Shown piece after piece: positions 7,946-25,576 of a DNA stretch of 64,000 nucleotides. The DNA is from Erythrobacter insulae (GTDB lineage Bacteria; Pseudomonadota; Alphaproteobacteria; Sphingomonadales; Sphingomonadaceae), in contig NZ_VHJK01000001.1 of the NCBI RefSeq assembly GCF_007004095.1, positions 872,501 to 936,500 of the forward strand. The letters run 5' to 3'. Position 1 is the stretch's first letter, and each line of letters starts with the position of its first letter. The notes beneath the pieces were generated by a model. The model was given only the letters and a program-made list of their open reading frames with translations. It was not told the origin of the DNA and ran no database searches. A program made the position numbers and the translations under genes.

Positions 7946-8032
7946 ATCGAATTCCCCAAACCTTTGATACGCGTCCCCAGACTTTGACCTACGCGATTTG
8001 CAGCGCATGGCAAGGTGGGCATAAGAGGGGGC

Positions 8033-8689: not shown

Positions 8690-8699
8690 CGGGCGTTAC

Positions 8700-8894
8700 C
8701 TACCCGTCGAGCGACACGCGAACCGGGGCCTGATCCGCGCTGCTATCCGCGGCGCTGCCGTCGGCGCCGGCAGACAGATCGGATGCACCATTCCCCGTTT
8801 CGGCAACCGAGGGGCCGCCCAAAACGGCAAACATCACCAACAATCCGCCCACCATTCCCAGTGTTACTCCGGCAAGACCCTGGACGATTTTCAT
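8700..8894 (-). CDS. Small Ala/Ser-rich membrane-anchored protein
   Basis: The 64-residue frame has a basic start and one hydrophobic segment (about residues 5-26, rich in Gly, Leu and Val). An Ala/Ser/Asp-rich tail without Cys follows. A ribosome site AGAAGGG lies 6 bases before the ATG. It may be a small inner-membrane or secreted protein. The tail is low complexity, so evolutionary evidence is weak, but the start signals are good. Confidence 0.5.
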   Translation of the reverse strand: MKIVQGLAGVTLGMVGGLLVMFAVLGGPSVAETGNGASDLSAGADGSAADSSADQAPVRVSLDG

Positions 8895-9115
8895 GCGATA
8901 CCCTTCTGCTGCGTTAACTTCATTCGGTAATCGGATAACGGGGTGAAGAAACCGTTAGGATTTTCGCCGTAACGCGCGATTTTACAACACTTTTCATCCG
9001 CAGGCCCGCGCTAAATCCGCGCTTTCGGGAGTCTGTGCGGACTGCGATGTTTAGGATTGGATTAACGGGTCGGGTAAAGGGCGTGGAGCGCGCCCATGTG
9101 GGCCAAGACAAGAGC

Positions 9116-9175
9116 CCCGGAGCGAGGCAAGGAGAGAGCCCAGGAGCGAGCCCGGAAGCGAGCCAAGGAGAGAGC
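9116..9175. repeat. 12-bp tandem repeat, five units
   Basis: Units of 12 bases begin at about 9116, 9128, 9140, 9152 and 9164, with core GGAGCGAG or GGAGAGAG. It lies in the 650-base gap 8895-9547, which otherwise holds two 18-base direct repeats and a 14-bp array and no convincing gene. Confidence 0.8.
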
Positions 9176-9243
9176 GACGCCTCGCCTAAGACGCCGCTCT
9201 CATAAGGGCCGGCACCGTGCGGCATAACGCGGCGCGATGCAGC

Positions 9244-9341
9244 TGTAGGACACAGGTGACAGATCGCCGATGTGTCACCCGTGTCATACACAGTGTTCCT
9301 CAATGAATTGAGGTGTTTGCGCCTGTAGGACACAGTTGACA
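9244..9341. repeat. 18-base direct repeat pair with an internal hairpin
   Basis: TGTAGGACACAGGTGACA at 9244-9261 recurs at 9324-9341 with one change (G to T). The first copy pairs with a downstream segment at 9273-9285 as a 13-bp inverted repeat with one mismatch. Such spaced, near-identical motifs look like operator sites or dispersed repeat units, but no regulator is evident. Confidence 0.7.
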
Positions 9342-9462
9342 CTTGTCCAACATAAATTGCGTTTTGTCTTTGGGCGAGACACGAAAGACCGGGTATAAAA
9401 GCGGCAGGCAGCATGGCTGCGCCGTACCACGCGGCCTGTCCTGTAGGAAAATAGCCCGCCCG

Positions 9463-9553
9463 GATCAGGCCGTGCGGATCAGGCCGTGCGGATCACGCTG
9501 CGCAGATCAGGCCGCCCCGATCAGGCCCCCCGATCAGGCCCCCCCAATCAGGC
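9463..9553. repeat. 14-bp tandem repeat, seven units, abutting ydcH-like stop
   Basis: GATCAGGC-type units start at 9463, 9477, 9491, 9505, 9519, 9532 and 9546, so the spacing is 14 except one step of 13. The last unit contains the stop codon of the leftward gene that ends at 9548. The repeat is non-coding and has no spacers of CRISPR type. Confidence 0.88.
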
Positions 9554-9802
9554 AGGTGTGCGTTCCCGCGTCACGATGGCGGTGATTTCATCGAGCAGCG
9601 CAAGCCGCGCGCGCTTCAATTCTTCGAGCCGCTCGTCACTGGCGGCCTCTGCCTCCGCCTCGATCCGGTGCACCTCGCGGTTGATGGCGTGATATTCATC
9701 GGCCAGCCGCACATAATGCGCCATATCGCGCTTTAACCGCGTGAGCAGATCGCGATCCCGCTTGAAAATTTCGGTGAGTTCGTTGGGTGTATGCTGTGAC
9801 AT
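9548..9802 (-). CDS. DUF465/YdcH-like small helical protein
   Basis: The 84-residue protein is predicted to be one long charged helix pair: LTEIFKRDRDLLTRLKRD, then HYVRLADEYHAINREVHRIE, then an ELKRARLALLDEI helix. This layout, with the ...EYH.INREVHRIE pattern, fits the DUF465 (YdcH) family of 70-90 residue proteins of unknown function. The ribosome site GAGGAG lies 7 bases before the ATG. The gene's last codons run directly into a seven-unit 14-bp tandem repeat, so the 3' end may vary between strains. Confidence 0.8.
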   Translation of the reverse strand: MSQHTPNELTEIFKRDRDLLTRLKRDMAHYVRLADEYHAINREVHRIEAEAEAASDERLEELKRARLALLDEITAIVTRERTPA

Positions 9803-9940
9803 GGGGCTTCTCCTCTAGGTGTGTAAGGGAAGCTATGCGCGCGCGGCGGGAGCGTGTCTTTGATATGGGTCAATTAGCCATTTTTTGAGAATTGTCCCCT
9901 CTCGCTTGCGAACGGGGCAGAGGACCGGCAAGAAAAAGAA

Positions 9941-10294
9941 ATGCCCGACTGGAAACCCCGCAACACAATGCGCGCTCGTTCGCTGCGAAATCAGGCGACA
10001 CCGGCTGAACGCGCGCTGTGGCGACATCTTTCTCGGAGCCAGCTCGGTGCGAAATTCAGCCGTCAGATGCCAATCGGCCCATATTATGCCGACTTTATAT
10101 GCCGCAGCATTAAACTGGTAATCGAGCTTGATGGCCACAGCCACGATGTGCAGCACGCAATGGATTCCGCGCGTGACCGCTGGATGCGAGATCGAGGTTA
10201 CGCGGTGCTGCGGTTTACAAATGCGGATGTGCAGGAAAACATTGAAGGCGTGCTTCAGGCGATCGAGGCCGAACTGCCAAACCTGCGCGACTAA
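9941..10294 (+). CDS. DUF559 (Vsr-like) endonuclease-fold protein
   Basis: The 117-residue protein fits DUF559, a PD-(D/E)XK-like family related to very short patch repair endonuclease. It has NQATPAERALWRHLSR, then the core strand with Asp in YYADFICRSIKLVIELDG, then GHSHD and a D-x-x-R-D-x-x-M helix, then YAVLRFTNADV and a final ...NIEGVLQAIEAEL helix. Biochemical activity is not established for most members. A degenerate palindrome precedes it at about 9896-9924, and three REP-like palindromes follow within 210 bases. This points to a possible link with those repeats. Confidence 0.88.
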   Translation: MPDWKPRNTMRARSLRNQATPAERALWRHLSRSQLGAKFSRQMPIGPYYADFICRSIKLVIELDGHSHDVQHAMDSARDRWMRDRGYAVLRFTNADVQENIEGVLQAIEAELPNLRD

Positions 10295-10296
10295 TG

Positions 10297-10553
10297 CCCT
10301 CCTGACTGCGGGAGGGAGGCGAGACTTGGTGACGCAAAGCGGAGCCTAGTCGCAGCAGGGCGGGCGAGGAACAAAGGCCCCGGCAATGTTGCTCCCACCC
10401 CCAACCCCTCCCGCAAGCGGGAGGGGAGCTTGGCCGCGCTTTAACATAAGAAACTCACGAGGGATTTGGTGTCGAGCGTGTCATCCCTCCCGCAAGCGGG
10501 AGGGACACGAGGCTTGGCGAATGCAATGAGCCTAGCCGCAGTTGGGTGGGCAG
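10297..10553. repeat. Cluster of three REP-like palindromes
   Basis: Palindrome A spans 10297-10316 with imperfect CCCTCC/GGAGGG arms, B spans 10405-10426 with perfect 10-bp arms CCCCTCCCGC/GCGGGAGGGG, and C spans 10485-10504 with perfect 9-bp arms. A and C are each followed by a related tail of about 50 bases containing GAGCCTAGTCGCAG or GAGCCTAGCCGCAG and a G-rich end. B shares only the start of the tail. They lie in the gap 10295-10834, which has no supported gene. Confidence 0.8.
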
Positions 10554-10756
10554 GCGATGACAGATGTACAGACTACTTGAGCCTCCTACGCAGATAATTT
10601 TTATCCAGCGGCGAGTCATTTAGCTAAAGACAGTAGGCATATACATCGACAACCTGCACCATACAGCTGAAGCAGTAGTGGAACATGTTCGCCGCGAAGG
10701 CTTCTGAAAAGGCTCCACTGAGATCCCTCAGCTTTGAGATTGTCGAAGCGTCAATA

Positions 10757-10796
10757 GAAATGGCGCCCAACCAACAGATTGGTTGAGCACCATTTC
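10757..10796 (-). terminator. Strong hairpin in the nrdB 3' region
   Basis: Two 18-base arms (10757-10774 and 10779-10796) pair around a CAGA loop. The only two mismatches on the plus strand become G-U pairs in minus-strand RNA, so the structure is uninterrupted only in the nrdB transcript. It lies about 40 bases after the nrdB stop. No U-run follows, so it may protect the 3' end or need Rho rather than act as a classic terminator. Confidence 0.6.
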
Positions 10797-10834
10797 CAAA
10801 CATAGCATTCATCAAATTAGACGATGCGGAAAAG

Positions 10835-11884
10835 CTACTCCGCCGCTTCGACCTCGCCAAACATATCCGGGCCGTTATCCGTCACTTCGTCTTCGTTGAC
10901 GGCTTTGGCTTTCTGGCGCTTGTCGAAGCTGGACCAGACGCTGTTCCAATCGCCGGTGGTGGCGCCTTTGGAATATTCGGTGGCGCGCGTTTCGAAGAAG
11001 TTGGCGTGCTCCACACCGTTAAGCAGCGGGGTCAGCCATGGCAGCGGGTGGTCTTCGATCATATAGACCGGTTGCAGGCCCAGCTGTTTCAAACGCCAAT
11101 CGGCGATATAGCGGATGTAGCGTTTGATCTCGGTCGCGGTCATGCCGTTTACCGGGCCCATTTCAAACGCAAGGTCGATAAAGGCATCTTCGAGGCGCAC
11201 GGTTTTCTGGCAGACATCGATAATGTCTTCCTTCACCGCCTTGGTCAGGCAGTTCCGCTCTTCGCAGAATGTGTGGAACATCTTGATGATGCCTTCGCAG
11301 TGCAGCGATTCGTCACGGACGGACCATGATACGATCTGGCCCATGCCCTTCATCTTGTTAAAGCGCGGGAAGTTCATCAGCATCGCGAAAGATGCGAACA
11401 GCTGAAGCCCTTCGGTAAAGCCGCCGAACATGGCGAGCGTGCGGGCAATATCCTCGTCGGTGTCGACGCTGAATTGCTGCATGTAATCGTGTTTGTCCTT
11501 CATCTCCTCATAATCGAGGAACGCGCTGTATTCGCTTTCGGGCATGCCGATCGTGTCGAGCAGGTGCGAATAGGCGGCGATGTGCACCGTCTCCATATTG
11601 GAGAACGCGGTGAGCATCATCTTGATCTCGGTCGGTTTGAAAACACGGCCATATTTGTCGTGATAGCAATCCTGCACTTCGACATCGGCCTGAGTGAAGA
11701 AACGGAAGATCTGCGTGAGCAGATTGCGCTCATGCTCGGTGATTTTCTGCGCCCAATCGCGGCAATCTTCGCCGAGCGGCACTTCTTCGGGCATCCAGTG
11801 GATTTGCTGCTGGCGTTTCCAGAAGTCGTAAGCCCAAGGGTATTGGAACGGCTTGTAGGTCTTACGGGCTTCGAGCAACGACAT
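10835..11884 (-). CDS. nrdB: Class Ia ribonucleoside-diphosphate reductase, beta subunit
   Basis: NrdB houses the diiron-tyrosyl radical cofactor that starts ribonucleotide reduction. The 349-residue protein keeps the ligand spacing of E. coli NrdB: Asp67, Glu98 and His101 in METVH, the radical Tyr105, Glu158, and Glu192 and His195 in DESLHCEG. It lacks an N-terminal ATP-cone. The C-terminus is acidic, as needed for docking to NrdA. nrdA is 2.8 kb away on the same strand rather than adjacent. Four GANTC sites lie in the 110 bases before the start, and a long hairpin follows the stop. Confidence 0.97.
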   Translation of the reverse strand: MSLLEARKTYKPFQYPWAYDFWKRQQQIHWMPEEVPLGEDCRDWAQKITEHERNLLTQIFRFFTQADVEVQDCYHDKYGRVFKPTEIKMMLTAFSNMETVHIAAYSHLLDTIGMPESEYSAFLDYEEMKDKHDYMQQFSVDTDEDIARTLAMFGGFTEGLQLFASFAMLMNFPRFNKMKGMGQIVSWSVRDESLHCEGIIKMFHTFCEERNCLTKAVKEDIIDVCQKTVRLEDAFIDLAFEMGPVNGMTATEIKRYIRYIADWRLKQLGLQPVYMIEDHPLPWLTPLLNGVEHANFFETRATEYSKGATTGDWNSVWSSFDKRQKAKAVNEDEVTDNGPDMFGEVEAAE

Positions 11885-11911
11885 GTTGTGTTTCCTTAAT
11901 TTGGGTTCGGT

Positions 11912-11992
11912 GACTCATATAGGGAATCAAACTACGAATTCGAAGGCAAGCAGGGATGATTCGGCGGGGATAAACTGTGCTTTTTCTGAGTC
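11912..11992. promoter_or_regulatory. GANTC cluster upstream of nrdB
   Basis: GANTC sites lie at 11912, 11924, 11958 and 11988, in the 240-base divergent gap between nrdB and the diguanylate cyclase; a fifth lies near 12075. GANTC is the target of the CcrM cell-cycle methylase of alphaproteobacteria, and one site is expected per 256 bases at random. Confidence 0.6.
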
Positions 11993-12124
11993 GAATGGAG
12001 CACAGGGGGCGGTGACTTGCAAACCGCTCAACGAAGTCAGGGGTTTGTGCGTGCGGTGCATCGCCGCAATCGCGAATCCGGTTCGGCTAACGCAACATTA
12101 AACTTACCCGAATAAACGCCGGTG

Positions 12125-13501
12125 ATGGGCATAGAAGGTTCTATCGTTCCGGCTGAAAATTGGGCCGGGTATACCGCTGCGGCGGATCGAGGCTCGGATC
12201 ATCCGTCCGAGCGTCTGGGCGTGCCTGAAGGAATTGACACGCCCGAGATCGACCAGATCGGACAAAGCGGAACGCCGCTGCGCGCGTGGCCGGATACGAT
12301 CCGCACCCTGTACCTCAAAGAGATGACCGCACGGCTTTACCGGGAACAGCATTTCCTCGCGGTCCTTGGATTTCTGACATGTCTTGCGACCATTGCGCTC
12401 GATATGCTGACCAATCCGGCGATGGTGAAAGAGGGCGCAATGCTGCGCGTTCTAGGAATCGGGCCGATATTGCTCACCGGGTTCATCGCAGCAGAGCGGG
12501 GCAAGACATGGCTGGTCGCCGCCTGCCTCGCTGCCGGACCCAGCGCGTTTGCGGGCGTGATTGTTCATCTGACATCACATCTTCAGCCGCAATATGCCGC
12601 ATCGTATCTTACCGCGACCACGCTGGTGGTGGGCATGGCAAACATCGTTATGCCGCTATCCATGCGCGGTCTTATCCTGTTCGACATCGCGTTTATCGGG
12701 ACGGTTGTTCTCGTTCTTGCCGCCGGTCCGGCGGGCTCCGCCGAAGCGCTCGCGATGAGAGCGGATTATATTGCGCTGCTGTGCGTGGTGGCCGCCGCGA
12801 CATTGCCGTTGGCGGCGCGATTTGAGCAATTGCGGCAAAAGAACTTTTTGTTGAACCTGCGCAGCCGGATTACGGCGCACCAATTGCGCGGTGCCAATCG
12901 CAAATTGCGTGACCTTTCCGAACGAGACCCCCTCACCGGAGCGCTCAATCGGCGCGGTTTTGCGCGGATGTTCAACCAGCAAATTCTCGGGGCGATGGAC
13001 GAAGACGCACCGCAGGATCAGGGCCGCATTGCGATCATCATGGTCGATATCGATCACTTCAAGCATTTCAATGACACTTATGGCCACGGGGCCGGCGATA
13101 CGTGCCTGACCATGGTCGCTCAAACGCTGCATGCGATACTTTCTGAAATCGGCGGCGTGGTCGCGCGGCATGGCGGTGAAGAATTTGTCGCCGCCATGCG
13201 CGAGCACCATTGCGGCCATGTCGATGCTCTGGCCGAAGAGATCCGCCTGGCCGTCGCATCGTTGATGATACCGGTTGATGTGAAGGGAAGCGCCAAAGGC
13301 AGCTCGCTTGTCACGGTCTCTATTGGCGTCGGTGCTGCAAACGCGCTGTCTGGTGCCCGGAGCCCCCGGCACCGCGAAGCGATGCGAGAGGCCTTGATCC
13401 AGATGGCCGATTCCGCGCTGTACAGCGCCAAGAATGCAGGCCGGAACCGGACTCAGATCCTTCATCATCCGGGGCCGGAAATCCGGGCAGAATCGGCGTA
13501 A
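12125..13501 (+). CDS. Membrane-bound GGDEF diguanylate cyclase
   Basis: The 458-residue protein has an N-terminal region of about 75 residues, then five or six membrane segments between about residues 75 and 235, a coil, and a GGDEF domain. The domain shows RDPLTGALNRRGF, IIMVDIDHFKHFNDTYGH and RHGGEEFV (GGEEF, active-site type, near residue 350). It should make cyclic di-GMP. No RxxD inhibitory site is evident just upstream of the GGEEF motif. A GTG directly precedes the ATG and could also serve as start. A PilZ-type protein lies about 1 kb downstream on the other strand. Confidence 0.93.
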   Translation: MGIEGSIVPAENWAGYTAAADRGSDHPSERLGVPEGIDTPEIDQIGQSGTPLRAWPDTIRTLYLKEMTARLYREQHFLAVLGFLTCLATIALDMLTNPAMVKEGAMLRVLGIGPILLTGFIAAERGKTWLVAACLAAGPSAFAGVIVHLTSHLQPQYAASYLTATTLVVGMANIVMPLSMRGLILFDIAFIGTVVLVLAAGPAGSAEALAMRADYIALLCVVAAATLPLAARFEQLRQKNFLLNLRSRITAHQLRGANRKLRDLSERDPLTGALNRRGFARMFNQQILGAMDEDAPQDQGRIAIIMVDIDHFKHFNDTYGHGAGDTCLTMVAQTLHAILSEIGGVVARHGGEEFVAAMREHHCGHVDALAEEIRLAVASLMIPVDVKGSAKGSSLVTVSIGVGAANALSGARSPRHREAMREALIQMADSALYSAKNAGRNRTQILHHPGPEIRAESA

Positions 13502-13556
13502 AGCGGAATCGGGTTAAACCAGCGCCCGCTTGGTCATTTGCGGGAAGGCAGGCCCA

Positions 13557-13841
13557 TCAATCGCCGCGGCTCCTGGAGCCGAAGAAACTGCCGCCACCCA
13601 AAACGGTGATGCCGACAAAAAATCCGAAATCATACCAGCCCCCTGAATTGGGTACGGCATAGACGGCAATATCCGGGTTGAAGAGTGATCCGATCCAGCT
13701 CCATGGAAAAATGAACCCGTGCCACAATCCCCACCAGAAGCCGGGCGCCGCAGGCTCTTGTGAGACCGCGACGTCGATCTGGCTGGCGCAGGCTGAAAGC
13801 AGCAATGCAAGGCCGATCGCTGTGATAACCCGCATCTTCAT
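13557..13841 (-). CDS. Small conserved lipoprotein
   Basis: The 94-residue product has a signal peptide with lipobox LSAC. A conserved aromatic Gly/Trp-rich body follows (GFWWGLWHGFIFPWSW, then a YDFGFFVGITVLGGG segment that may be membrane-embedded). I recognise this as a recurrent small protein of the group without known function. The start at 13841 overlaps the stop of the upstream small membrane gene as ATGA, so the pair is translationally coupled. Confidence 0.72.
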   Translation of the reverse strand: MKMRVITAIGLALLLSACASQIDVAVSQEPAAPGFWWGLWHGFIFPWSWIGSLFNPDIAVYAVPNSGGWYDFGFFVGITVLGGGSFFGSRSRGD

Positions 13842-14020
13842 AACTGGATCAGCGCGATCGTGAGCCACAGTAACGGCAGAAAAACGATCACCATCATCAT
13901 ATGCAATCGGCCCGCATTGGCGGCATGGCCCGGCCCCGCGCGCACCGCGCGCAGGCCGTTTGCCGCAAAGGCGAGCGCAACGATTGTGCCGATAATGCCA
14001 ATCCAAAGCGTTGGTGTCAT
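13838..14020 (-). CDS. Small two-helix membrane protein
   Basis: The 60-residue frame has two membrane helices (about residues 3-18 and 42-58) joined by a basic loop. I start at the ATG at 14020 with AGGG 6 bases before it; an in-frame TTG lies six codons upstream. It overlaps the downstream lipoprotein gene by four bases. The two may form one membrane unit. The function is unknown. Confidence 0.62.
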   Translation of the reverse strand: MTPTLWIGIIGTIVALAFAANGLRAVRAGPGHAANAGRLHMMMVIVFLPLLWLTIALIQL

Positions 14021-14146
14021 AAGCCCTAAATCTCCCAAATCCCGGCCCGCATCAGGGCGAAGAATGCCCGATACGCAAAAGCCAGACGGTGATTATGCCA
14101 CAATTGCGGCGCGGGATCGAGAACGGGGTGCCGGATCGGGCCGGAT

Positions 14147-14506
14147 TTAGCAGAAACGCGTTGGTTTCGTCTTTGTCATCGGTTCGAATTCACGCTCGGA
14201 CAATCCTGCCGATGCCGCCGGTATATGGCTTGATTGGAATTCGCCAAGTTCGGCTTCGGTGATATTTCTGAGGAAAGTGACTCCGATTTCGCCTTTTTCG
14301 GCCCATTTCACAGTCCCGTGATGAGGGCCCGTACCGGCAATCTCGATCTGGAGACGCGCACCGATCGTCAGATCGGGCGAGGTTGAGGCAAAACGGCAGC
14401 CACCGGCGGAAATTTCTGTGACCAAGACATCGTCTGGCGCACCTGTACCGGTGAAATACCGGCTGGGGAGCTTGATTGATTTTCGAGGCGTCTGGCGTGT
14501 TTGCAT
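14147..14506 (-). CDS. Divergent PilZ-domain protein
   Basis: The 119-residue protein has the PilZ layout: a basic start (TPRKSIKLPSRY), a strand with EISAGGCRF, a ...IGARLQIEIAG strand, and GTVKWAEKGEIGVTF. PilZ domains bind cyclic di-GMP through RxxxR and (D/N)xSxxG. Here the first motif has Lys in place of the second Arg, and the second motif starts with Glu, so binding may be weak or lost. I prefer the ATG at 14506; a longer frame starts at 14530. It is downstream of nrdA, separated by a strong terminator. Confidence 0.72.
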   Translation of the reverse strand: MQTRQTPRKSIKLPSRYFTGTGAPDDVLVTEISAGGCRFASTSPDLTIGARLQIEIAGTGPHHGTVKWAEKGEIGVTFLRNITEAELGEFQSSHIPAASAGLSEREFEPMTKTKPTRFC

Positions 14507-14582
14507 GGCTGATGCCGGTATACGCCGCACATGCTTAACAGCCCGTAAAGGCTGATCCGCGTCCTTCGGCGTAAGGCCAAAG

Positions 14583-14619
14583 AAAACCCCCGCAAAGCAT
14601 AACGCTTTGCGGGGGTTTT
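14583..14619 (-). terminator. Terminator of nrdA
   Basis: Perfect 16-bp arms (14583-14598 and 14604-14619) carry a five-GC core run and end in AAAA on one side and TTTT on the other, around a 5-base loop. It lies 20 bases after the nrdA stop. The T-run continues as TTTTCTTT on the minus strand. Confidence 0.92.
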
Positions 14620-14640
14620 ATAAAATCCGATGTCAGATCA

Positions 14641-16671
14641 TCACTGACAGCTGAGGCATTCCTCATAATCAGTTTGCTCGGCGGCAAGTTCAAATTTGGC
14701 TGCGTCGGCGGTATTATCGGCTTCAACCCCGCCCGCAAAACCGGCGCGCTGGATCGATTTTGAGCGAAGGTAATACAGCGACTTGATGCCTTTTTCCCAT
14801 GCCTGGAAGTGCAGCATCATCAGATCCCATTTGTCGACATCGGCCGGGATGAACAGGTTCAACGACTGCGCCTGATCGATGTAAGGCGCGCGGTCGGCTG
14901 CGAAATCGAGCAGCCAGCGCTGGTCAATTTCAAAGCTGGTCTTGAAGCTCGCTTTTTCCTCTTCCGTCAGGAAGTCGAGATGCTGGACGCTGCCTGCCTT
15001 TTCGAGAATCGAATTCCAGACATTGGTCGAGTTCTTCGATTTCTTGTCGAGGATCTTTTCAAGATACGGGTTCTTCACAATGAAGCTGCCCGACAGGGTT
15101 TTGTGCGTGTAGATGTTGGCAGGGATCGGCTCGATACAGGCCGACGTACCACCGCAAATGATCGAGATCGATGCGGTCGGCGCGATTGCCATTTTACAGC
15201 TGAACCGCTCCATCGCGCCCATATCGGCGGCGTCGGGACAAGGTCCGCGCTCCTGCGCCAGCAACATCGATGCCTCGGATGCTTTCGCCTGAATATGCTT
15301 GAACATTTTCAGGTTCAGCGCCTTGGCCATCGCGCTTTCAAAGCCGAGCCCTTTTTGCTGAAGGAAAGAGTGGAAACCCATCACGCCCAGACCAACCGAA
15401 CGCTCACGCTCGGCGGAATATTTGGCGCGCGCCATCTCATCAGGTGCGCGGTCAATATAATCCTGCAGGACATTGTCGAGCATCCGCATCACGTCTTCGA
15501 TGAATTGCTTGTCGCCGTTCCACTCGTCCCATTTTTCAAGATTGAGCGACGACAGACAGCAAACTGCGGTGCGATCATTACCAAGGTGGTCGATACCGGT
15601 TGGCAGCGTGATTTCGCTGCACAGGTTCGATGTCGAAACCTTCAGACCCAGATCGCGGTGATGCTTTGGCATCATGCGGTTCACCGTGTCATTAAACACG
15701 ATGTACGGTTCACCTGTGGCAAGCCGGCATTCGACCAATTTCTGGAACAGCGAACGCGCATCGACTGTGCCGCGCACTTCGCCGGTTTTCGGTGATTTCA
15801 GTTCAAATTCGTCACCGGCACGGACCGCTTCCATGAAGGCATCGGTAAGCAGCACGCCGTGGTGCAGGTTCAATGCCTTGCGATTGAAATCGCCCGAGGG
15901 TTTGCGGATTTCGAGGAATTCCTCGATTTCAGGGTGGCTCACGTCAAGGTAACACGCCGCAGAGCCGCGCCGCAGCGAGCCTTGCGAAATTGCCAGAGTG
16001 AGCGAGTCCATAACGCGCACGAACGGGATGATGCCGCTGGTTTTGCCATTAAGGCCGACCGGCTCGCCAATACCGCGGACATTGCCCCAATAGGTGCCAA
16101 TGCCGCCGCCTTTGGACGCCAGCCACACGTTTTCATTCCAGGTGTTCACAATGCCATCAAGGCTGTCGGAAACCGAATTGAGATAGCAGCTGATCGGAAG
16201 CCCGCGCGATGTGCCGCCATTCGACAGAACCGGTGTGGCCGGCATGAACCACAGGTTCGAAATGTAATCATACAGACGCTGGGCGTGTGCCTGATCATCG
16301 GCATAGGCATCGGCCACACGCGCAAACAAATCCTGAAAGCTTTCACCGGGCAGCAGATACCGGTCGATCAGCGTTTCTTTGCCGAAATCGGTCAGCTTGG
16401 AATCGCGCGCTTCGTCGGTGATGATTTCAAACCGGCGGTCATTGACCTTTTTGCTGTCCATATCGACGGCGGCTTTGCTCGCTTCGCCAATCGCACCCGC
16501 CAGCGCCGCGCCCGCTTTTTCAGCGATCAGCTCTTCGCTGCCTTTATCGCCCGTTGTCATGGTCACTGCTTTAGCCTCGGTTCCGGCGTTTGTTTCCGCG
16601 CGGGTTTCTGTTTCTGTCACTGTATCGCCTGCGTTCTCATTCGGCACGCCATCGCTCGCTTTGAATTCCAT
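14641..16671 (-). CDS. nrdA: Class Ia ribonucleoside-diphosphate reductase, alpha subunit
   Basis: NrdA reduces NDPs with the radical supplied by NrdB. The 676-residue protein has the substrate-site Cys in LPISCYLNS, the active-site SNLCSEITLP (Asn, Cys, Glu), the second Cys in CCLSSLNL, the PTASISIICGGTSACIEP loop, and a C-terminal redox pair CLSC two residues from the end region. The usual N-terminal ATP-cone is not recognisable. In its place is a Thr/Glu/Ala-rich extension of about 70 residues, suggesting no dATP switch at that site. A dense GANTC cluster lies upstream and a strong terminator follows. Confidence 0.97.
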   Translation of the reverse strand: MEFKASDGVPNENAGDTVTETETRAETNAGTEAKAVTMTTGDKGSEELIAEKAGAALAGAIGEASKAAVDMDSKKVNDRRFEIITDEARDSKLTDFGKETLIDRYLLPGESFQDLFARVADAYADDQAHAQRLYDYISNLWFMPATPVLSNGGTSRGLPISCYLNSVSDSLDGIVNTWNENVWLASKGGGIGTYWGNVRGIGEPVGLNGKTSGIIPFVRVMDSLTLAISQGSLRRGSAACYLDVSHPEIEEFLEIRKPSGDFNRKALNLHHGVLLTDAFMEAVRAGDEFELKSPKTGEVRGTVDARSLFQKLVECRLATGEPYIVFNDTVNRMMPKHHRDLGLKVSTSNLCSEITLPTGIDHLGNDRTAVCCLSSLNLEKWDEWNGDKQFIEDVMRMLDNVLQDYIDRAPDEMARAKYSAERERSVGLGVMGFHSFLQQKGLGFESAMAKALNLKMFKHIQAKASEASMLLAQERGPCPDAADMGAMERFSCKMAIAPTASISIICGGTSACIEPIPANIYTHKTLSGSFIVKNPYLEKILDKKSKNSTNVWNSILEKAGSVQHLDFLTEEEKASFKTSFEIDQRWLLDFAADRAPYIDQAQSLNLFIPADVDKWDLMMLHFQAWEKGIKSLYYLRSKSIQRAGFAGGVEADNTADAAKFELAAEQTDYEECLSCQ

Positions 16672-18187: not shown

Positions 18188-19147
18188 TCACCGCCAGACC
18201 GGTCCGCCGATTTCAAAGCCGCGCGTCTCGAGACTGTCCAGCACGCCTTGCGGCTCGGCCAGCACCCTCAGCGGTACAACCGCAACCGTCGTCCCGTCCG
18301 CCGCCGCAGCGCCTTCGATCATGTCGATCCACGCGCCGCGGATATCCTCGCCAAGTTCGGGATCGGCCCATGGCCAGCACGTGCCCAACGCGATTTCCAG
18401 CGGGTTTTCCATCACCGCAGGGATATCGAATTTGCGCCAGTCATCGCCGCGTTTTGCGATGATATCTGGCCCTGTTTCCGTCGCGGTCATCGCCGCTTCG
18501 AGACAGGGAATGTGCGAGGCAGGCGGAGCATCGGCGAGATTGTCGAGCAGGTCCTCGCCGCGAAACCGCTCCGGGCGCTGGATCGGGACATCGGCCTTGT
18601 CGGCGGCCTTGCGCACAATATCGGTCGCATCATCATCCAGCGTATCGTCATCGAAATCGAGCCTGCGCGCGAGCAGGTCGAACGCCGTCATCAGGAAACT
18701 GCCGCGATCATAATCTTTGTCATATTCCGCTTCGAGCGCCGCCAACCGCGCGCGCTGATCCAGATCGAGATAATCGGCAGCGACGCTTTTATCGGGCAAT
18801 TTGGTAAAACTGCCCCCGCGAAAGATCAGGCGGAAAATATCACCCGGCGAAATCTTTGGCCGCGATCGGATAATCACGCGGTCTGCCTCGCCGGTGGCTT
18901 CTTTCAGTCGGTCGGGCTGCCACGGCGTGCTTTGCGGAACAGCGCGAATCTCACCGACCAGAATGACCGTGCCGGTCTCGGTATAGATCGTCCACATTGG
19001 CGCACCGGATCGCTGGGCCGTCACGACAATCTGATTGGGCGCAGGTTCGGGGCCGCCGGACTGCGCGGCAAGCGGGCTTGCGACGAGCGCAGCCAAAGTG
19101 AGCAATTGGCCTATCGAGGCCTTCGCGGAAAAGCGGGAAGTTTTCAT
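18188..19147 (-). CDS. TraB/GumN-like protein with altered GxxH motif
   Basis: The 319-residue protein has a signal peptide cleaved near residue 28 (SPLAAQS). The N-terminal TraB/GumN pattern follows: PMWTIYTETGTVILVGEI and then RAVPQSTPW. The family's metal-binding GxxH is here GEIR, so the histidine is replaced. The later LPDKSVAADYLD segment matches the usual substrate strand. TraB/GumN/Tiki proteins are related to metalloproteases and erythromycin esterase-like enzymes. Loss of the His suggests a non-catalytic or re-purposed member. It is secreted or periplasmic. Confidence 0.75.
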   Translation of the reverse strand: MKTSRFSAKASIGQLLTLAALVASPLAAQSGGPEPAPNQIVVTAQRSGAPMWTIYTETGTVILVGEIRAVPQSTPWQPDRLKEATGEADRVIIRSRPKISPGDIFRLIFRGGSFTKLPDKSVAADYLDLDQRARLAALEAEYDKDYDRGSFLMTAFDLLARRLDFDDDTLDDDATDIVRKAADKADVPIQRPERFRGEDLLDNLADAPPASHIPCLEAAMTATETGPDIIAKRGDDWRKFDIPAVMENPLEIALGTCWPWADPELGEDIRGAWIDMIEGAAAADGTTVAVVPLRVLAEPQGVLDSLETRGFEIGGPVWR

Positions 19148-19320
19148 AGCGATGACAGTAAACCCATCCGCCTTTCTCTGGAATGTATCAAAATCCCTTT
19201 GCGACCGCGCATATGCCCGCCGACTAATACCTTTGCATTAGCACACCTGCTGGATGGGGGACCGATCAACCTGCCGGTACTCTGCATCGCAAGACAGTGA
19301 TCGAAGCAGGAGAAATCGCC

Positions 19321-19839
19321 ATGAGCAAGCCAACGCAGCTCGACTGCCCAAGCGCCCCGTATCAGCATCCTGACGCAAAGCTGTTTGGCGTTGTGCGCGA
19401 AGAGGATGGCGACACCCGCGTCGCCTATCTTGAAAAAGATGCGCAGCTCCCGAGCGATTCCAATCCCGAGGATCTTGGCGTCGATCCGGGACATGCTCTG
19501 CGTTTTTCCGCGCCCTGCGCCAACAATGGCTGCGGCCAATGGCGCGATGGCGGCTGCGGGCTGGGCAAGGCGATTATCGAACAGCTTAAGCCGGTCGTTG
19601 ACGTGGCACCGGCCTGCACATTGCGCGCCACCTGCCGCTGGTTCGCCGAAAATGGCACGGCGAGCTGTCTGCGCTGCCCGCAGATCACAACGCGCCGCCG
19701 CAAAAGCGAAGCAGCCTTGCCCGAGCCGCGCGGCCCGGTTGGCCCCGTCGGCCCCGTCGGCCCCGTTGGCCCGAACCTGCCGAATAGAATTCCGTCACCC
19801 GCCCATAACCCGGACGGTGGGGCTACGGTTCACGCATGA
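19321..19839 (+). CDS. Cysteine-rich protein with collagen-like tail
   Basis: The 172-residue protein has no signal peptide. Cysteines are at 9, 66, 71, 79, 99, 105, 116 and 119, in clusters CANNGC..GGC and ACTLRATC..SCLRC, which suits Fe-S or zinc binding. The C-terminus has GPVGPVGPVGPVGP, a short collagen-like run coded by near-identical 9-base repeats. The start is the ATG at 19321 with GGAG 8 bases ahead. I do not know the family. The next gene, 28 bases on, encodes a peptide with a double-glycine-type leader, so this protein could be its partner or modifying factor (inference). Confidence 0.72.
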   Translation: MSKPTQLDCPSAPYQHPDAKLFGVVREEDGDTRVAYLEKDAQLPSDSNPEDLGVDPGHALRFSAPCANNGCGQWRDGGCGLGKAIIEQLKPVVDVAPACTLRATCRWFAENGTASCLRCPQITTRRRKSEAALPEPRGPVGPVGPVGPVGPNLPNRIPSPAHNPDGGATVHA

Positions 19840-19867
19840 ATGTCCGGGTCATAGCTAGGAGAACACC

Positions 19868-20110
19868 ATGAATAGCAAAAAGAAAGCCAGCCGGATCGGT
19901 TCAGATGCCCTTCTGACCGGGATCGCAGCCGCTTCGGCAGAAGCGCAAACCCGCATCGCGAAACTTGACGGCAGCGATGTCGATCAAGTGTCGGGCGCAG
20001 GCATCATCGACGACATCATCGATATCGATGTGACCATGGGCATGTACCCGGAACCCGATCCCGATCCCAACAATCCGTTTGAGAACGTGATCAAATCCAT
20101 CGGCCTCTGA
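19868..20110 (+). CDS. Putative precursor peptide with double-glycine-type leader
   Basis: The 80-residue product has a basic start and ends its first half with the consensus of bacteriocin/RiPP leaders: Leu33, Asp37, Val38, Val41, Gly43 and Ala44 fill positions -12, -8, -7, -4, -2 and -1 (LDGSDVDQVSGA). Cleavage there would release a 36-residue acidic peptide with IIDDIIDID, PEPDPDPNNP and an amphipathic end FENVIKSIGL, with no Cys. The ribosome site GGAG lies 8 bases before the ATG, and a hairpin terminator follows. No peptidase-containing ABC exporter is close by. It may be a secreted peptide or a decoy. Confidence 0.72.
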   Translation: MNSKKKASRIGSDALLTGIAAASAEAQTRIAKLDGSDVDQVSGAGIIDDIIDIDVTMGMYPEPDPDPNNPFENVIKSIGL

Positions 20111-20130
20111 ATCGCGCTGACGGATAATAT

Positions 20131-20166
20131 GGCTGCGGCGCCTATGGCGCTGCAGCCACTGTTTTA
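20131..20166 (+). terminator. Hairpin terminator after the leader-peptide gene
   Basis: Arms 20131-20142 and 20146-20157 form a 12-bp stem with one G-U pair and a TAT loop, followed after four bases by TTTT. It lies 20 bases after the peptide stop and separates it from the convergent nadB gene. Confidence 0.65.
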
Positions 20167-20188
20167 TGTGCCCAGTTTATGTGCCCAG
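20163..20188. repeat. 13-bp tandem duplication at the nadB 3' end
   Basis: TTTATGTGCCCAG at 20163-20175 is repeated exactly at 20176-20188, one base before the nadB stop codon. Confidence 0.9.
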
Positions 20189-20189
20189 A

Positions 20190-21782
20190 TCACGGAACCA
20201 GCACCGTATCGCGCGCTACCTCATCCGTTTTCGGATAATCCAGCGTGTAATGCAGACCGCGGCTCTCATGACGGGCCAGCGCGCTTTTGACGATCAATTC
20301 GGCTGATTGCAGCAAATTGCGCAATTCAATAAGGTCGGTCGTCACACGGAATGATCCGTAATAATCCTCAACCTCGCGTTTCAGCAGCTCGATCCGGTTG
20401 GCCGCGCGCTCCATCCGTTTGGTCGTGCGCACGATGCCGACATAGTTCCACATGAAGCGGCGGATTTCCGTCCAATTCTGCTTGATGACGACTTCCTCGT
20501 CAGAATCTGCCACGCGGCTTTCATCCCACGGCAAAATTGCAGGCGGTGCCTCCAGCGTGTCCCAGCGGGCAAGAATATCGTCCGCCGCCGCTTCGCCAAA
20601 CACAAAACATTCCAGCAGGCTGTTTGACGCCAGCCGGTTTGCCCCGTGCAGCCCGCTTTCGGTGACTTCACCCGCCGCCCAAAGCCCCGGCAGATCGGTG
20701 CGCGCCTGAAGATCGACGACCACACCTCCGCAGGTGTAATGCTGCGCAGGTACAACCGGGATCGGGCCGGTGGTCATATCAATTCCAAGCCCGGTCAGCT
20801 TCTCGTGGATTGTTGGGAAATGTTCTTTCACGAATTCGGGCGGTTGGTGGCTGATATCCAGATGCACGTAATCCAGGCCAAAGCGTTTGATCTGGTCATC
20901 GATCGCACGCGCCACGACATCGCGAGGAGCCAGCTCCATGCGTTCGGGATCATAATCCGCCATGAAACGGTGACCGGTTTCGGGATGGAGCAGATGCCCG
21001 CCTTCGCCGCGAACGGCCTCTGTGATGAGGAAGTTTTTGACTTCGAGATTGTAGAGGCAGGTCGGGTGGAACTGCATCATTTCCATATTGGAAACGCGCG
21101 CTCCGGCCCGCCACGCCATCGCGATGCCATCTCCGGTCGCGCCGCGTGGAGCGGTTGAAAACAGATAACAGCGGCCCGCACCGCCAGCTGCCAGAATGGT
21201 TGCGCGGGCAATGTACCGCTCTACCCGCCCGCTTTCCTCGTTAAGCGCGTAAACGCCCCAGACGCGGCCTGCAGCGGAAAATTTCTCGCCGTGCCTGTCG
21301 GTGATGAAATCGATACATGTGCGGCCCGGCGCAAGCGTGATGTTGGGCGACGCCTCTGCAGCTTTGACCAACGCCGATTGCACCGCCCAGCCCGTGGCGT
21401 CATCCACGTGGACGATCCGGCGGTGGGAATGTCCGCCTTCGCGGGTCAGATGCAGCGCGTTTTCATCGCGGTTAAAGGGCACGCCCAATTCGCACAGGCG
21501 GTCAATTGCCTTTGGCGCGCCTTCGATGACGAATTCGACAGTTTCTATATCGTTCAAGCCCGCGCCAGCGACCATCGTATCGCGGATGTGATCCTCAAAC
21601 GTGTCACCTGCATCCAGCACCGCCGCGATGCCGCCTTGCGCCCAAGCGGTTGATCCACCGGTCAGCGATCCTTTTGCCAGAACCAGCACACGCTTGGTCT
21701 CGGCCAGTTCCAGCGCTGCGGTCAAACCGGCAGCGCCCGATCCGATCACAATTACATCATAGTCGTTCGTCAATGTGCTCAT
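20190..21782 (-). CDS. nadB: L-aspartate oxidase
   Basis: NadB oxidises L-aspartate to iminoaspartate in de novo NAD synthesis using FAD. The 530-residue protein begins DVIVIGSGAAGLTAALELA (dinucleotide site), has GGSTAWAQGGIAAVLD for the FAD and active-site region, REGGHSHRRIVH, the HPTCLYN motif, and the late FAD segment DLPGLWAAGE. The start at the ATG 21782 places the GxGxxG motif at its usual position. nadA and nadC are not adjacent. The longer upstream frame has no supporting features. Confidence 0.95.
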   Translation of the reverse strand: MSTLTNDYDVIVIGSGAAGLTAALELAETKRVLVLAKGSLTGGSTAWAQGGIAAVLDAGDTFEDHIRDTMVAGAGLNDIETVEFVIEGAPKAIDRLCELGVPFNRDENALHLTREGGHSHRRIVHVDDATGWAVQSALVKAAEASPNITLAPGRTCIDFITDRHGEKFSAAGRVWGVYALNEESGRVERYIARATILAAGGAGRCYLFSTAPRGATGDGIAMAWRAGARVSNMEMMQFHPTCLYNLEVKNFLITEAVRGEGGHLLHPETGHRFMADYDPERMELAPRDVVARAIDDQIKRFGLDYVHLDISHQPPEFVKEHFPTIHEKLTGLGIDMTTGPIPVVPAQHYTCGGVVVDLQARTDLPGLWAAGEVTESGLHGANRLASNSLLECFVFGEAAADDILARWDTLEAPPAILPWDESRVADSDEEVVIKQNWTEIRRFMWNYVGIVRTTKRMERAANRIELLKREVEDYYGSFRVTTDLIELRNLLQSAELIVKSALARHESRGLHYTLDYPKTDEVARDTVLVP

Positions 21783-22003
21783 GGGCAAACGCCATGGCGC
21801 GCAATCCAATTCAGAGCAAGTCGGAGCAAGAATTGCGGCCATATCGAACCGGTCATGTATGCGCTCGATCAATTCGGCGTGGGCAAATGTAAAATCCGCT
21901 TGCGCCGCGGGGCAGTACTGCTACTTGGACTACGAGGTCGCACTTAATTTGCACGGTAAGAATACCGGCTTTTCGCAGTCGCGTAAAACATTGGACCTCT
22001 CCC

Positions 22004-22774: not shown

Positions 22775-23729
22775 CCGGGCCGGAATAGGCCCTGCCAATG
22801 GCCTCGAGGCTCGCCGTTATCGGGTTCAAAGACCGCTCCATATTGTGAGACAGCACCAAACGCCCTGGCTCAAGCGCGCCAGCGAGCGCACCGATTTGCT
22901 CCGGCGTCCGGTGCAGTCCGCGTGGCTGTCCATCGTCACCGTTGATCACATGATGCGCGATCAGGATCGCGGGTTTGCTGCCGGTCAAATCGTTCAGAAA
23001 ACGCTCGCTCTGCGCACTTTGATCTCCGGTGATGACGATCGATTTCCCCGCGACGTCAATCACATAACCCAGCGCGGGCACAACGCCGTGATGGACCGGA
23101 TGCGCCATCACAGAAAAATCATTCGAAACATCAAGCCCCGCAGGTGCGCCGGTGCCTTGCGCGGTTGTGATTTCCTGCACGGCCAATGCCGGTTTGTTTT
23201 CGGTGCCGTCGGTGTACCCGCCATTATATGCGAACGCGCCTGCGTCTTTACCGAGCAATCGGGTGATGAACGTTTCCATACCGGGAAAGCGCGGCGCCGC
23301 GTCCGGGCCGGCCACAAACAGAGGTTTGCTGCGCCCTTCGAACCCGCCAGAATTCAAAATCCCTGCCAAGTCGCCAGCGTGGTCGGCGTGCAGGTGGGTC
23401 AGCACAATCGCATCCAATGTCGCCAATTTCCCGCCAGCCTGGGCATAACGCAGGAAACTGCCTGCGCCCGCATCGATCAACAGCCGCGGCTCGCCATCGA
23501 TCCATAGCAGATAGGATGTGCCGGCCCGATCCGCTTCGGCAATGGGACCGCCGCTGCCAAGCACCTGAAGCGCGGCGCCTGTGCCCGGACAACCGGCAGG
23601 CTGTTCGGCACGTGGTGGACTGGTTATGCCGGGTGGAACGGCAGACGGGTCTGCTGCATCAGACGATCCGCACGCCGCAAGAACCGCCGCCGCGCACACT
23701 GCATAAGCAAAGCGCGCCGCAGCCCGCAT
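22737..23729 (-). CDS. Metallo-beta-lactamase-fold lipoprotein
   Basis: The 330-residue product has a signal peptide with lipobox LAAC. The metallo-beta-lactamase fold is clear: LIDAGAGS, HLHADHAGD with the HxHxDH zinc motif near residue 115, VHHG, GDQSAQ, and a late LSHNM. The layout resembles RNase Z or arylsulfatase-type members. With a lipid anchor it should act in the periplasm or outer membrane. The start overlaps the stop of the ABC ATPase gene as ATGA, so the two are coupled. The substrate is unknown. Confidence 0.87.
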   Translation of the reverse strand: MRAAARFAYAVCAAAVLAACGSSDAADPSAVPPGITSPPRAEQPAGCPGTGAALQVLGSGGPIAEADRAGTSYLLWIDGEPRLLIDAGAGSFLRYAQAGGKLATLDAIVLTHLHADHAGDLAGILNSGGFEGRSKPLFVAGPDAAPRFPGMETFITRLLGKDAGAFAYNGGYTDGTENKPALAVQEITTAQGTGAPAGLDVSNDFSVMAHPVHHGVVPALGYVIDVAGKSIVITGDQSAQSERFLNDLTGSKPAILIAHHVINGDDGQPRGLHRTPEQIGALAGALEPGRLVLSHNMERSLNPITASLEAIGRAYSGPVSVAFDLDCYAL

Positions 23730-24706
23730 CAGGCAGTCGTTCCGGTCAGCTGTACGAACACATCCTCCAGATCCGCCTCGCGCGTGGTGACATCTTCCAC
23801 TGTCAGCCCTTGTTCCTGAAGGATCGCGAGCACCTGACCCGCGTTGAGGCGGTCTTTATCATATGTAACCTCGACACCGCGCTCCCCTGCAAGTTCGACC
23901 TTGCTAAAGGCTTCATGCGAAGGTGCCTCGGCCAGATCATCCGCAAGCGTAACCGCGACAATTTTCTCGCGCGCCATATTGATCAGTTCACGCGTGGGTT
24001 TGTGCGCGATCAGTTCGCCGTGATTGATGATCGCAATCTCATCACACAATTCCTCTGCTTCCTCGAGGTAATGCGTAGTCAAAACCACTGTTACGCCTTC
24101 GCGGTTCATCTGAGTGACGAGTTCCCACAATTGCCGGCGCAATTCGACATCAACGCCCGCGGTCGGCTCATCCAGAACCAGGATCGGCGGGGAATGAACC
24201 ATGGCTTTGGCCACGAGCAAACGGCGTTTCATCCCGCCTGAAAGGGTCCGCGCGTAGGCATCGCGTTTATCGGCGAGACGAACAGCCTCCAGCAATTCCT
24301 CGCTGCGGCGATCCTTGCCGGGAATTCCATAGAATCCGCCCTGATTTTCAAGCACCTCGTAAGGGGTGAAGAAAGGGTCGAACACGATTTCTTGCGGTAC
24401 GATCCCGATTGCGCGGCTCGCATTGCGGCGCTGCTGATCGATATCGAAACCCCAGATGTTCGCTGATCCGCCAGTCTTGTTCACAAGGCCCGCAAGGATA
24501 TTGATCAATGTCGATTTGCCCGCACCATTGGGGCCGAGCAGACCGAAAATCGAACCTTCGGGTACATCAAAGCTCACCCCGTTCAGCGCGAGTTTGCCTT
24601 CGGCGTCCTCACCCTTTGCGCCTTTGGGCGCGGCATAACGTTTGACGAGATTCTCGATACGGATAGCAGGAGGCTTGGTCATAGGATCGGACATAGGATG
24701 GGACAT
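23729..24706 (-). CDS. ABC-2 type transporter ATP-binding protein
   Basis: The ATPase has Walker A GLLGPNGAGKST, Q-loop VPQE, signature LSGGMKRRL, and Walker B with the LVLDEPTAGVD D-loop and switch His in TTHYLEEAEEL. The C-terminal extension is typical of the CcmA/DrrA-like subfamily that serves ABC-2 exporters. No permease lies in the window. Several in-frame ATGs (24742, 24706, 24694, 24682) make the start uncertain; I choose 24706. Coupling to the metallo-hydrolase lipoprotein suggests a joint envelope function (inference). Confidence 0.88.
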   Translation of the reverse strand: MSHPMSDPMTKPPAIRIENLVKRYAAPKGAKGEDAEGKLALNGVSFDVPEGSIFGLLGPNGAGKSTLINILAGLVNKTGGSANIWGFDIDQQRRNASRAIGIVPQEIVFDPFFTPYEVLENQGGFYGIPGKDRRSEELLEAVRLADKRDAYARTLSGGMKRRLLVAKAMVHSPPILVLDEPTAGVDVELRRQLWELVTQMNREGVTVVLTTHYLEEAEELCDEIAIINHGELIAHKPTRELINMAREKIVAVTLADDLAEAPSHEAFSKVELAGERGVEVTYDKDRLNAGQVLAILQEQGLTVEDVTTREADLEDVFVQLTGTTA

Positions 24707-24810
24707 AGGCTCAGCTCTAGGTGACGGACGCATGGCGGGCAAGCCGGTGCAGCACTCAAACGCGATTGAGATTGAATTCAGCCGCCAGCGCGATTAACCG
24801 TCATCACGCT

Positions 24811-25071
24811 ATGAACATCCCACCACCTGAAACACTCCTGGTTGAAACAAAACGCGTCAGCTGTGACGGAGCGAGCGGCATTCGTGCAGGCGAGAATTAT
24901 CGCCCGGCCGCGCTCGGTCATCCGCGAATCTATCTGGAGATTGACGAACACGGTTATGTCGATTGCGGATATTGCGACCGGCGTTTTGTCCTGAAAGACG
25001 GCCCGGCTGACGGCGTGGATCAGGCCAGCCTGCCCGATATCTCAGAAGGCGCGGATCCCGGTCATCGGTAA
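24811..25071 (+). CDS. Zinc-finger CHCC (NDUFS6-like) protein
   Basis: The 86-residue protein has VSCDG, then GHPRIYLEIDEHGYVDCGYC and DRRFVL, the CHCC zinc pattern (Cys, His, Cys, Cys) of the family related to mitochondrial complex I subunit NDUFS6. In alphaproteobacteria such small proteins are associated with complex I or act as zinc-binding accessory proteins. I start at ATG 24811. The remaining complex I genes are not here. Confidence 0.9.
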   Translation: MNIPPPETLLVETKRVSCDGASGIRAGENYRPAALGHPRIYLEIDEHGYVDCGYCDRRFVLKDGPADGVDQASLPDISEGADPGHR

Positions 25072-25120
25072 ACCAGTCGCAGCCTCCCTCTCGGCGCTGG
25101 CGCTTTGGATACCGGCGCAA

Positions 25121-25576
25121 GTGGACGCAGCCAATCGGGACTGCGCAGCGATTGCTGCACTCACTGAAGAATCAGACGCAAAATTGAACAAGCTGGCAAT
25201 CGCGATGAACCGCGATGATCGGCTTGATCTTACCTATGATGGCAAACCCGGCCTGCTGAGGAACGCCACCGAATGCGGCATGTTTTCGCAATCAGGCGAT
25301 TTTGAGCTCGTATGCCAATGGGATTTCGGCAACGATCCGGGCGCCGCAAGCGCGCTTTTTTCAGCCTATCGAATCCGCATTGCAAAATGTCTGGCGGTCC
25401 CGTTTCTCAAACAGGAAAGTGGCAGTGATGACGAAACCGCCGCGCCCGAACGCTACCGGGCTGATATCGAGCACCCTGACAATTCAGAGACAACCATCAA
25501 ATTTGCGCTGCGCGAAACCAATTACGGCGAAACGCCGCGTTTTGTGGTACACTTTGACGTGTCCCGCTCTGACTAG
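25121..25576 (+). CDS. Exported protein of unknown function with unclear start
   Basis: The first standard start is a GTG at 25121, giving 151 residues beginning DAANRDC. The same frame continues upstream to about 25055 and there encodes a good signal peptide (hydrophobic AASLSALALW core, AQVDA before the Asn-Arg-Asp-Cys mature end) but no ATG, GTG or TTG. An ATC at 25055 sits 5 bases after AGAAGG. So the true start may be a rare codon or a sequencing error. The mature part has four Cys (NRDC, ECGMF, LVCQWDF, IAKC) that could form disulfides. The family is unknown. Confidence 0.65.
   Translation: MDAANRDCAAIAALTEESDAKLNKLAIAMNRDDRLDLTYDGKPGLLRNATECGMFSQSGDFELVCQWDFGNDPGAASALFSAYRIRIAKCLAVPFLKQESGSDDETAAPERYRADIEHPDNSETTIKFALRETNYGETPRFVVHFDVSRSD

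Follow-up and report, generated by a model that had tools for sequence, protein, structure and literature searches.

Peptides that leave the cell through C39-peptidase ABC exporters are often bacteriocins, and there are established motif and leader conventions for the double-glycine leaders of their precursors. The described systems closest to the locus reported here are the class II microcins and bacteriocins, which it resembles in the form of its leader end, in its G-A/G junction and in the presence in the genome of a C39-ABC exporter with an HlyD-type fusion protein. It differs from them in that the exporter is unlinked and in that the precursor is accompanied by a conserved Cys-rich partner gene; we know of no described class II system with such a partner. 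NHLP/Nif11 precursor systems, as described in the accessible part of PMC3140520, share the GG junction, and NHLP export genes lie beside homologs of our gene pair in Spirosoma and Nostoc. Unlike them, the precursor studied here gives no match to an NHLP or Nif11 leader domain (Pfam, NCBIfam) and has no known peptide-modifying enzyme among 13 neighbouring ORFs. The comparison with graspetides, as covered by the accessible part of PMC8939145, is similarly mixed: a Phormidium locus has a KYPSD-repeat precursor and two MvdD-type ATP-grasp genes beside the pair (L047:9374-12519) and a Streptomyces plasmid has annotated TgmB/TgmC about 7 kb from the Cys-rich gene, but the partner peptide itself lacks the KYPSD repeat and no ATP-grasp gene is found among the scanned window neighbours. 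Among the literature matches listed, including these two sources and PMC11798529, the parts available contain no published description of the pair.

The pair lies in the genome of Erythrobacter insulae (2.99 Mb, 3 contigs), in a stretch of 64,000 nucleotides (C1:872501-936500) that was analysed as a whole and is called the window below. A gene for a 172-residue protein with eight Cys residues (19321..19839, + strand) is followed, 28 bases after its stop codon, by an ORF for an 80-residue peptide (19868..20110, + strand), which agrees with the original prediction of both ORFs and their spacing. An AGGAG ribosome-binding-like site can be read from the sequence ahead of each start codon, at 19308..19312 (+) for the Cys-rich gene (ATG 19321) and at 19857..19861 (+) for the peptide gene (ATG 19868). 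A hairpin search returned a terminator-like hairpin 3′ of the peptide gene (20130..20158, +; 13 bp with a T tail), one of two such sites in the stretch against 1.1 expected, and no sigma-70-like promoter was detected in 19130-20260 with a model that says little outside enterics. The left neighbour is a TraB/PrgY/gumN-family gene (18188-19147, − strand; Pfam). Convergent with the pair, and beyond the hairpin, is a gene for an FAD protein with FAD_binding_2 and Succ_DH_flav_C domains (20190-21872), which we take to be nadB. Pfam searches of 13 neighbouring ORFs found a plain ABC ATPase domain in one of them (23729-24742), and neither C39 proteins nor peptide-modifying enzymes of known kind. The absence of a known RiPP enzyme nearby thus stands as predicted; the absence of an exporter holds for the window, which contains no C39 or fusion-protein match anywhere, but not for the genome, where an exporter is encoded about 177 kb away.

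The 80-residue product would be a precursor in three parts: N-terminal segment, double-glycine-type leader end and 36-residue core. The N-terminal segment (residues 1-32; 19868..19963, +) displays in alignments a helix-like stretch of the form L..av...v.rA..aR. The leader end, LDGSDVDQVSGA (residues 33-44; 19964..19999, +), has hydrophobic residues at -12, -7 and -4 and G(G/A/S) at -2/-1, as predicted, and the window peptide fits the double-glycine leader form far better than any other window ORF. A matrix made from leader ends of short ORFs at C39 exporter loci (6 from the same genome and 11 from related genomes, all from ORFs that do not partner the Cys-rich gene) ranked it first among the 740 window ORFs of at least 30 aa (67,361 residues), at 21.1 bits versus 9.2 for the runner-up; the input leaders were chosen by eye and with a regular expression of the same general form, and the form was not found blindly. 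With the six own-genome leaders only, the values are 15.5 and 11.9 bits. The -1 residue is Ala, and because four of the six leaders at the genome's own exporter locus also end in GA, this junction is a local habit. The sole profile match of the peptide is DUF6160 (E 0.064), below its cut-off. Cleavage after GA is predicted to release the acidic 36-residue peptide GIIDDIIDIDVTMGMYPEPDPDPNNPFENVIKSIGL (20000..20107, +), which is Cys-free, as had been noted.

Used alone as a query, the peptide hits only its own genome, and at E 0.01 none of 198 other genomes yields a relative: it is too short and diverged for a wide search, and the Cys-rich gene is the right bait. This gene is rare, being present in 8 of 199 genomes from its family, 8 of 396 from its order, 3 of 385 from its class and 6 of 398 from a phylum-wide sample (own genome counted in each). 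A scan of GTDB species genomes returned 42 homologous loci scattered over several phyla, including Qipengyuania, other Erythrobacteraceae, Burkholderia, Methylobacterium, Bradyrhizobium, Acetobacteraceae, Methylococcaceae, Aquabacterium, Microcystis and Phormidium, among others; loci from MAGs are labelled Acidobacteria, Chloroflexota, Thermomicrobiales and Binatia. PLSDB contributed eight records (Agrobacterium vitis 3, Streptomyces 2, Nostoc 1, Spirosoma 1, Polymorphobacter 1).

A small same-strand gene adjoins the Cys-rich gene in 41 of the 42 loci, and the flank of the remaining locus is unreadable. The suggestion of a new precursor/partner pair is supported by this adjacency. The other option raised with it, a self-standing secreted peptide, is disfavoured, although solitary copies of so diverged a peptide may exist. 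Gene order, which had been proposed as a check together with co-occurrence, is not kept: the partner is upstream in 33 loci (gap -4 to 160 nt) and downstream in 8 (25-66 nt), and order was dropped as evidence. Two tandem precursors follow one Cys-rich gene in L013, L014, L016, G298 and G481 (L013 and G481 are possibly one genome), as expected for a handler. No small partner was recognised in L089 or on the Polymorphobacter plasmid (L068). All that lies upstream of a divergent Cys-rich gene (L061, in genome G366) as a candidate partner is a longer frame containing a TAGIWIEP stretch, and the neighbours of the Streptomyces genes (L065, L066) have signal-like N-termini and fit the partner core motif described below poorly.

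Most distant partners escaped a fixed GG regular expression, and hence all small flanking ORFs were read; partner genes and their starts were picked by eye ahead of the profile tests, and six second GG peptides (L020_2, L022_1, L038_2, L041_2, L043_2, L047_2) were left out of the profile and pairing tests. In leave-one-out tests, all ORFs of a locus were ranked with a profile built without that locus and without peptides of at least 45% identity, the only relatives held out. The adjacent peptide came first in 38 of 44 tests. In five it was at rank 2-3 under its own tandem sister (L013_1, L013_2, L014_2, L016_1, L016_2), with one further ORF also ranked above in three of these, and L051 was second, behind an unrelated ORF. 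We also ranked ORFs with profiles of partners from outside Sphingomonadales: the window peptide was first of 564 with the 10 GG partners (E 0.009), first of 564 with the 22 non-GG partners (E 0.19) and second of 564 with all 32 (E 0.24), all three being weak E values. A 49-aa ORF at 25042-25191 (− strand) scored above it with the all-32 profile (E 0.014) and had E values of 2.3 and 0.8 with the other two; its rank is probably due to chance. The other peptides that did not come first were L013 (2 and 3) with the all-32 profile, L022 (15), L024 (18) and L043 (2) with the non-GG profile, and L025, L017, L044 (each 2) and L047 (4) with the GG profile.

What the short partners have in common lies in the core. 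In an alignment of 25 of them, which were chosen by hand with long partners and some near-duplicates left out, the only invariant column is G58, within a core element T/I-x-G..P; P63 is at least 90% conserved and the T56 column varies. In the window peptide this motif is TMGMYPEP (residues 56-63; 20033..20056, +). The PEPDPDP stretch originally described as a hinge is present and overlaps this conserved motif. A simple expression for the motif has no match in L042 or L051. The N-terminal helix-like segment is common to most short partners and is short or absent in L020, L022 and L024; the segment and the GG leader are each absent from some of them. Homologous precursors directly downstream of the Cys-rich gene in related genomes have the ending ...V(S/A)GG; a GG leader is missing in many distant partners. 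The leader matrix gives the partner peptides L004 and L011 scores of 5.0 and 7.8, less than that of the best chance window ORF (9.2). Since so many distant partners lack it, the GG leader is an optional module, with the core motif as the shared element. The CTB, class IIb and CCRG-2 bacteriocin/RiPP precursor models are each weakly matched by three of the 25 short partners (best E 0.0019-0.032).

The Cys-rich protein is the more conserved member of the pair. Its Cys residues (9, 66, 71, 79, 99, 105, 116 and 119) are all invariant across 43 aligned sequences, with C116 and C119 sitting inside the pattern used to find homologs and their invariance being partly built in; the full set of invariant columns is C9, P10, S11, R61, C66, C71, C79, P97, C99, R102, C105, W107, C116, C119 and T124. 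No export signal or membrane segment is seen by eye. Profile scans revealed no catalytic or enzyme domain of known kind: nothing exceeded the cut-off with Pfam (43 members; best E 0.011, from a single member), with NCBIfam (7 members; best E 0.0031, one member against actinodefensin at 18 bits versus a cut-off of 65) or with PADLOC among the members scanned. The predicted structure has a pLDDT of 72.7, with residues 126-171 at low confidence, and searches of the PDB by sequence and with this model by fold gave a best E of 1.8 and 0 of 495 chains at Z ≥2. The collagen-like GPV-repeat tail, to which the original prediction had drawn attention, falls in the low-confidence part of the model and is not conserved among homologs; we dropped it as a meaningful feature.

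We consider it somewhat probable that the locus is a two-gene unit of an exported peptide and a dedicated cytosolic handling or maturation partner. The Cys-rich protein would stay in the cytosol, its eight invariant Cys residues most likely forming one or two metal sites, with zinc or Fe-S. It would bind the core at T/I-x-G-(hydrophobic)..P, the one element that all 25 aligned short partners retain, and would hold or mature the peptide before export. The C39-peptidase ABC exporter and fusion protein about 177 kb away would then cut after GA-44 and export GIIDDIIDIDVTMGMYPEPDPDPNNPFENVIKSIGL. Since what the partners share is the core motif, and the export leader is exchangeable, we think that it is the core which the Cys-rich protein contacts ahead of export; a maturation role is plausible. 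A broader proposal is more tentative, and we hold it as possible: that the pair represents a new peptide-maturation class spread over several phyla, in which an eight-Cys metalloprotein recognises its partner's core through the invariant T/I-x-G..P, not through the leader, and export leaders (microcin-like GG, NHLP or none) are interchangeable according to the host's exporter.

Loci in other bacteria place the pair beside export and RiPP genes. The order peptide(s), Cys-rich gene, fusion protein, C39-ABC is found in L020, L038, L041 and L043, and C39 and fusion-protein genes are also within the fetched flank in L032, L033 and L047. Exporters are therefore encoded in cis in 7 of 42 loci (4 of the 16 that we assigned to the GG group and 3 of the remaining 26; some flanks are short). 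Where cyanobacterial partners adjoin C39 exporters, they lack a clear GG leader end of the form seen in the window. In L043:5354-5880, L038:9461-9976 and L041:9456-9994, a second, different GG peptide precedes the partner peptide. A Spirosoma oryzicola plasmid carries in a row NHLP secretion/export genes, one hypothetical gene, a GG peptide and the Cys-rich gene, and on a Nostoc plasmid an NHLP precursor precedes the Cys-rich gene inside a SagB/TOMM/NHLP cluster. The Nostoc Cys-rich protein (L064:7704-8405) is extended at its N terminus by a long segment, part of which resembles the partner helix, giving the look of a partial fusion of the two.

These neighbourhoods raise the question whether the Cys-rich protein is itself an enzyme, for instance an Fe-S protein that modifies the T-x-G..P motif and defines a new RiPP class. 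Retention of the motif across phyla would suit this, as would the RiPP export and enzyme genes adjoining some loci, including the two ATP-grasp genes in L047 next to repeats of KYPSD, a microviridin motif; so would the single Cys-rich gene followed by two precursors and the invariance of R61, R102 and W107 besides the Cys residues. Known RiPP chemistry uses Cys, Ser and acidic residues, however, and apart from the variable T56 the motif contains no shared residue of these kinds. Together with the lack of any known catalytic domain and the many loci without an exporter in the fetched flank, this makes a modifying enzyme unlikely in our judgement.

Two Peptidase_C39 matches over cut-off are present in the E. 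insulae genome, and one of them (C1:1068763-1069149) is part of a 712-aa ABC exporter with Peptidase_C39, ABC_membrane and ABC_tran domains all over cut-off, adjoined by a 410-aa HlyD-type fusion protein (HlyD_3 over cut-off). The peptidase-containing ABC exporter that the original prediction had proposed to look for elsewhere in the genome is therefore found. Its locus (L076; C1:1060000-1079000) encodes at 7045-16008 the six short leader peptides mentioned above, whose cores are very different and include one proline-rich repeat; a LuxR-type response regulator and a CHASE2 histidine kinase are also found there (Pfam).

Defining a full-length C39-ABC as a frame of at least 700 aa with >100 bits, a cut set after seeing the matches, we found one in 6 of 6 genomes that combine the Cys-rich gene with a GG peptide (706-719 aa), in 0 of 5 where the Cys-rich gene was seen without such a peptide (G026, a broken copy; G366, divergent; G149, G163 and G101) and in 12 of 98 background genomes, own genome left out; a C39 match of any kind occurs in 29 of 99. 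Leader peptides of the same type are present at the exporter locus in all six positive genomes, that is, at least one beside the C39-ABC in G198, G132, G188, G298 and G481 as well as in E. insulae. A fusion-protein frame was picked in 4 of these 6 loci; in L081 and L082 the longest-frame rule picked an antisense frame instead. Within the genus of G198, a full-length C39-ABC is found in 3 of 3 genomes with the pair versus 0 of 21 without it, and in 3 of 19 outside the pair search, and in the genus of E. insulae it is found in 5 of 18 genomes without the pair, one with an internal stop; for both comparisons, genomes up to G497 were taken, judging by their numbering, as searched for the Cys-rich gene. 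The six positive genomes belong to three genera of one family and carry the pair at one shared chromosomal site, and Fisher values for the co-occurrence are therefore too optimistic. Several G-labelled genomes duplicate named loci (e.g. G188 and L015), and the sets are not independent. Some copies of the pair lack a GG leader, and those in G149, G163 and G101 are in genomes with no C39 match at all; export therefore cannot be its universal role.

Another reading is that the pair is an intracellular two-subunit complex to whose small subunit a GG leader was added in some lineages, leading to its export. Long partners of ~90-115 aa without a GG leader, none with a C39 gene in the fetched flank, would fit it. 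An alignment of fifteen of them has an invariant Gly in both halves, and one of them, when modelled (pLDDT 67), shows two helix-plus-strand-pair units; a PDB fold search with it gave nothing usable (best E 0.3). L027:9620-9937 and other long partners look like two such repeats with a conserved Gly in each. Against a complex of this kind, the GG form tracks the exporter across genomes and exporter operons include the Cys-rich gene itself; we regard it as quite unlikely.

The chromosomal site of the pair gives a view of its recent evolution. In relatives with readable flanks the pair lies between nadB and a TraB-family or hydrolase gene; the TraB/PrgY/gumN-family gene is at this site in several relatives too. 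Eight of nine related genomes without this copy have nadB and one or both flank genes nearby with no pair between them, and the flank of the ninth shows nadB only; G366, with its divergent gene elsewhere, is one of the nine. In G026 (L007) the copy is half lost: 81 residues are left of the Cys-rich protein, immediately ahead of nadB, with no peptide seen. In the four close relatives L013, L014, L016 and L055, the Cys-rich gene (dN 0.009-0.030, dS 0.18-0.35) and both tandem peptides (dN 0.012-0.053, dS 0.16-0.38) are under purifying selection, as dN is well below dS.

Such selection without diversification in close relatives is hard to reconcile with a bacteriocin-like toxin and its immunity protein, a reading for which the adjacency of the two genes and the frequency of bacteriocins among peptides of C39 exporters could be cited. 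The peptides are also less conserved than the Cys-rich protein, a single copy of which can adjoin two different peptides, and no membrane segment is seen in it by eye; we therefore disfavour an immunity role and consider it very unlikely. A chance origin of the leader likeness and pairing, with the 80-aa ORF being no precursor at all, might be suggested by the failure of the peptide alone to find relatives, but is highly improbable given the homologous precursors at the same place in related genomes, the leave-one-out recovery, the purifying selection and the leader score.

The reading of an exported peptide with a cytosolic handling partner is thus the one we prefer. A rare pairing that recurs across phyla, sometimes beside peptide exporters, points to an undescribed way of handling small peptides. 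If this is true, the unnamed pair would offer a handle on secreted peptides that enzyme-based precursor mining misses, and would allow a direct test of how one handler serves several precursors and of how export leaders come to be exchanged.
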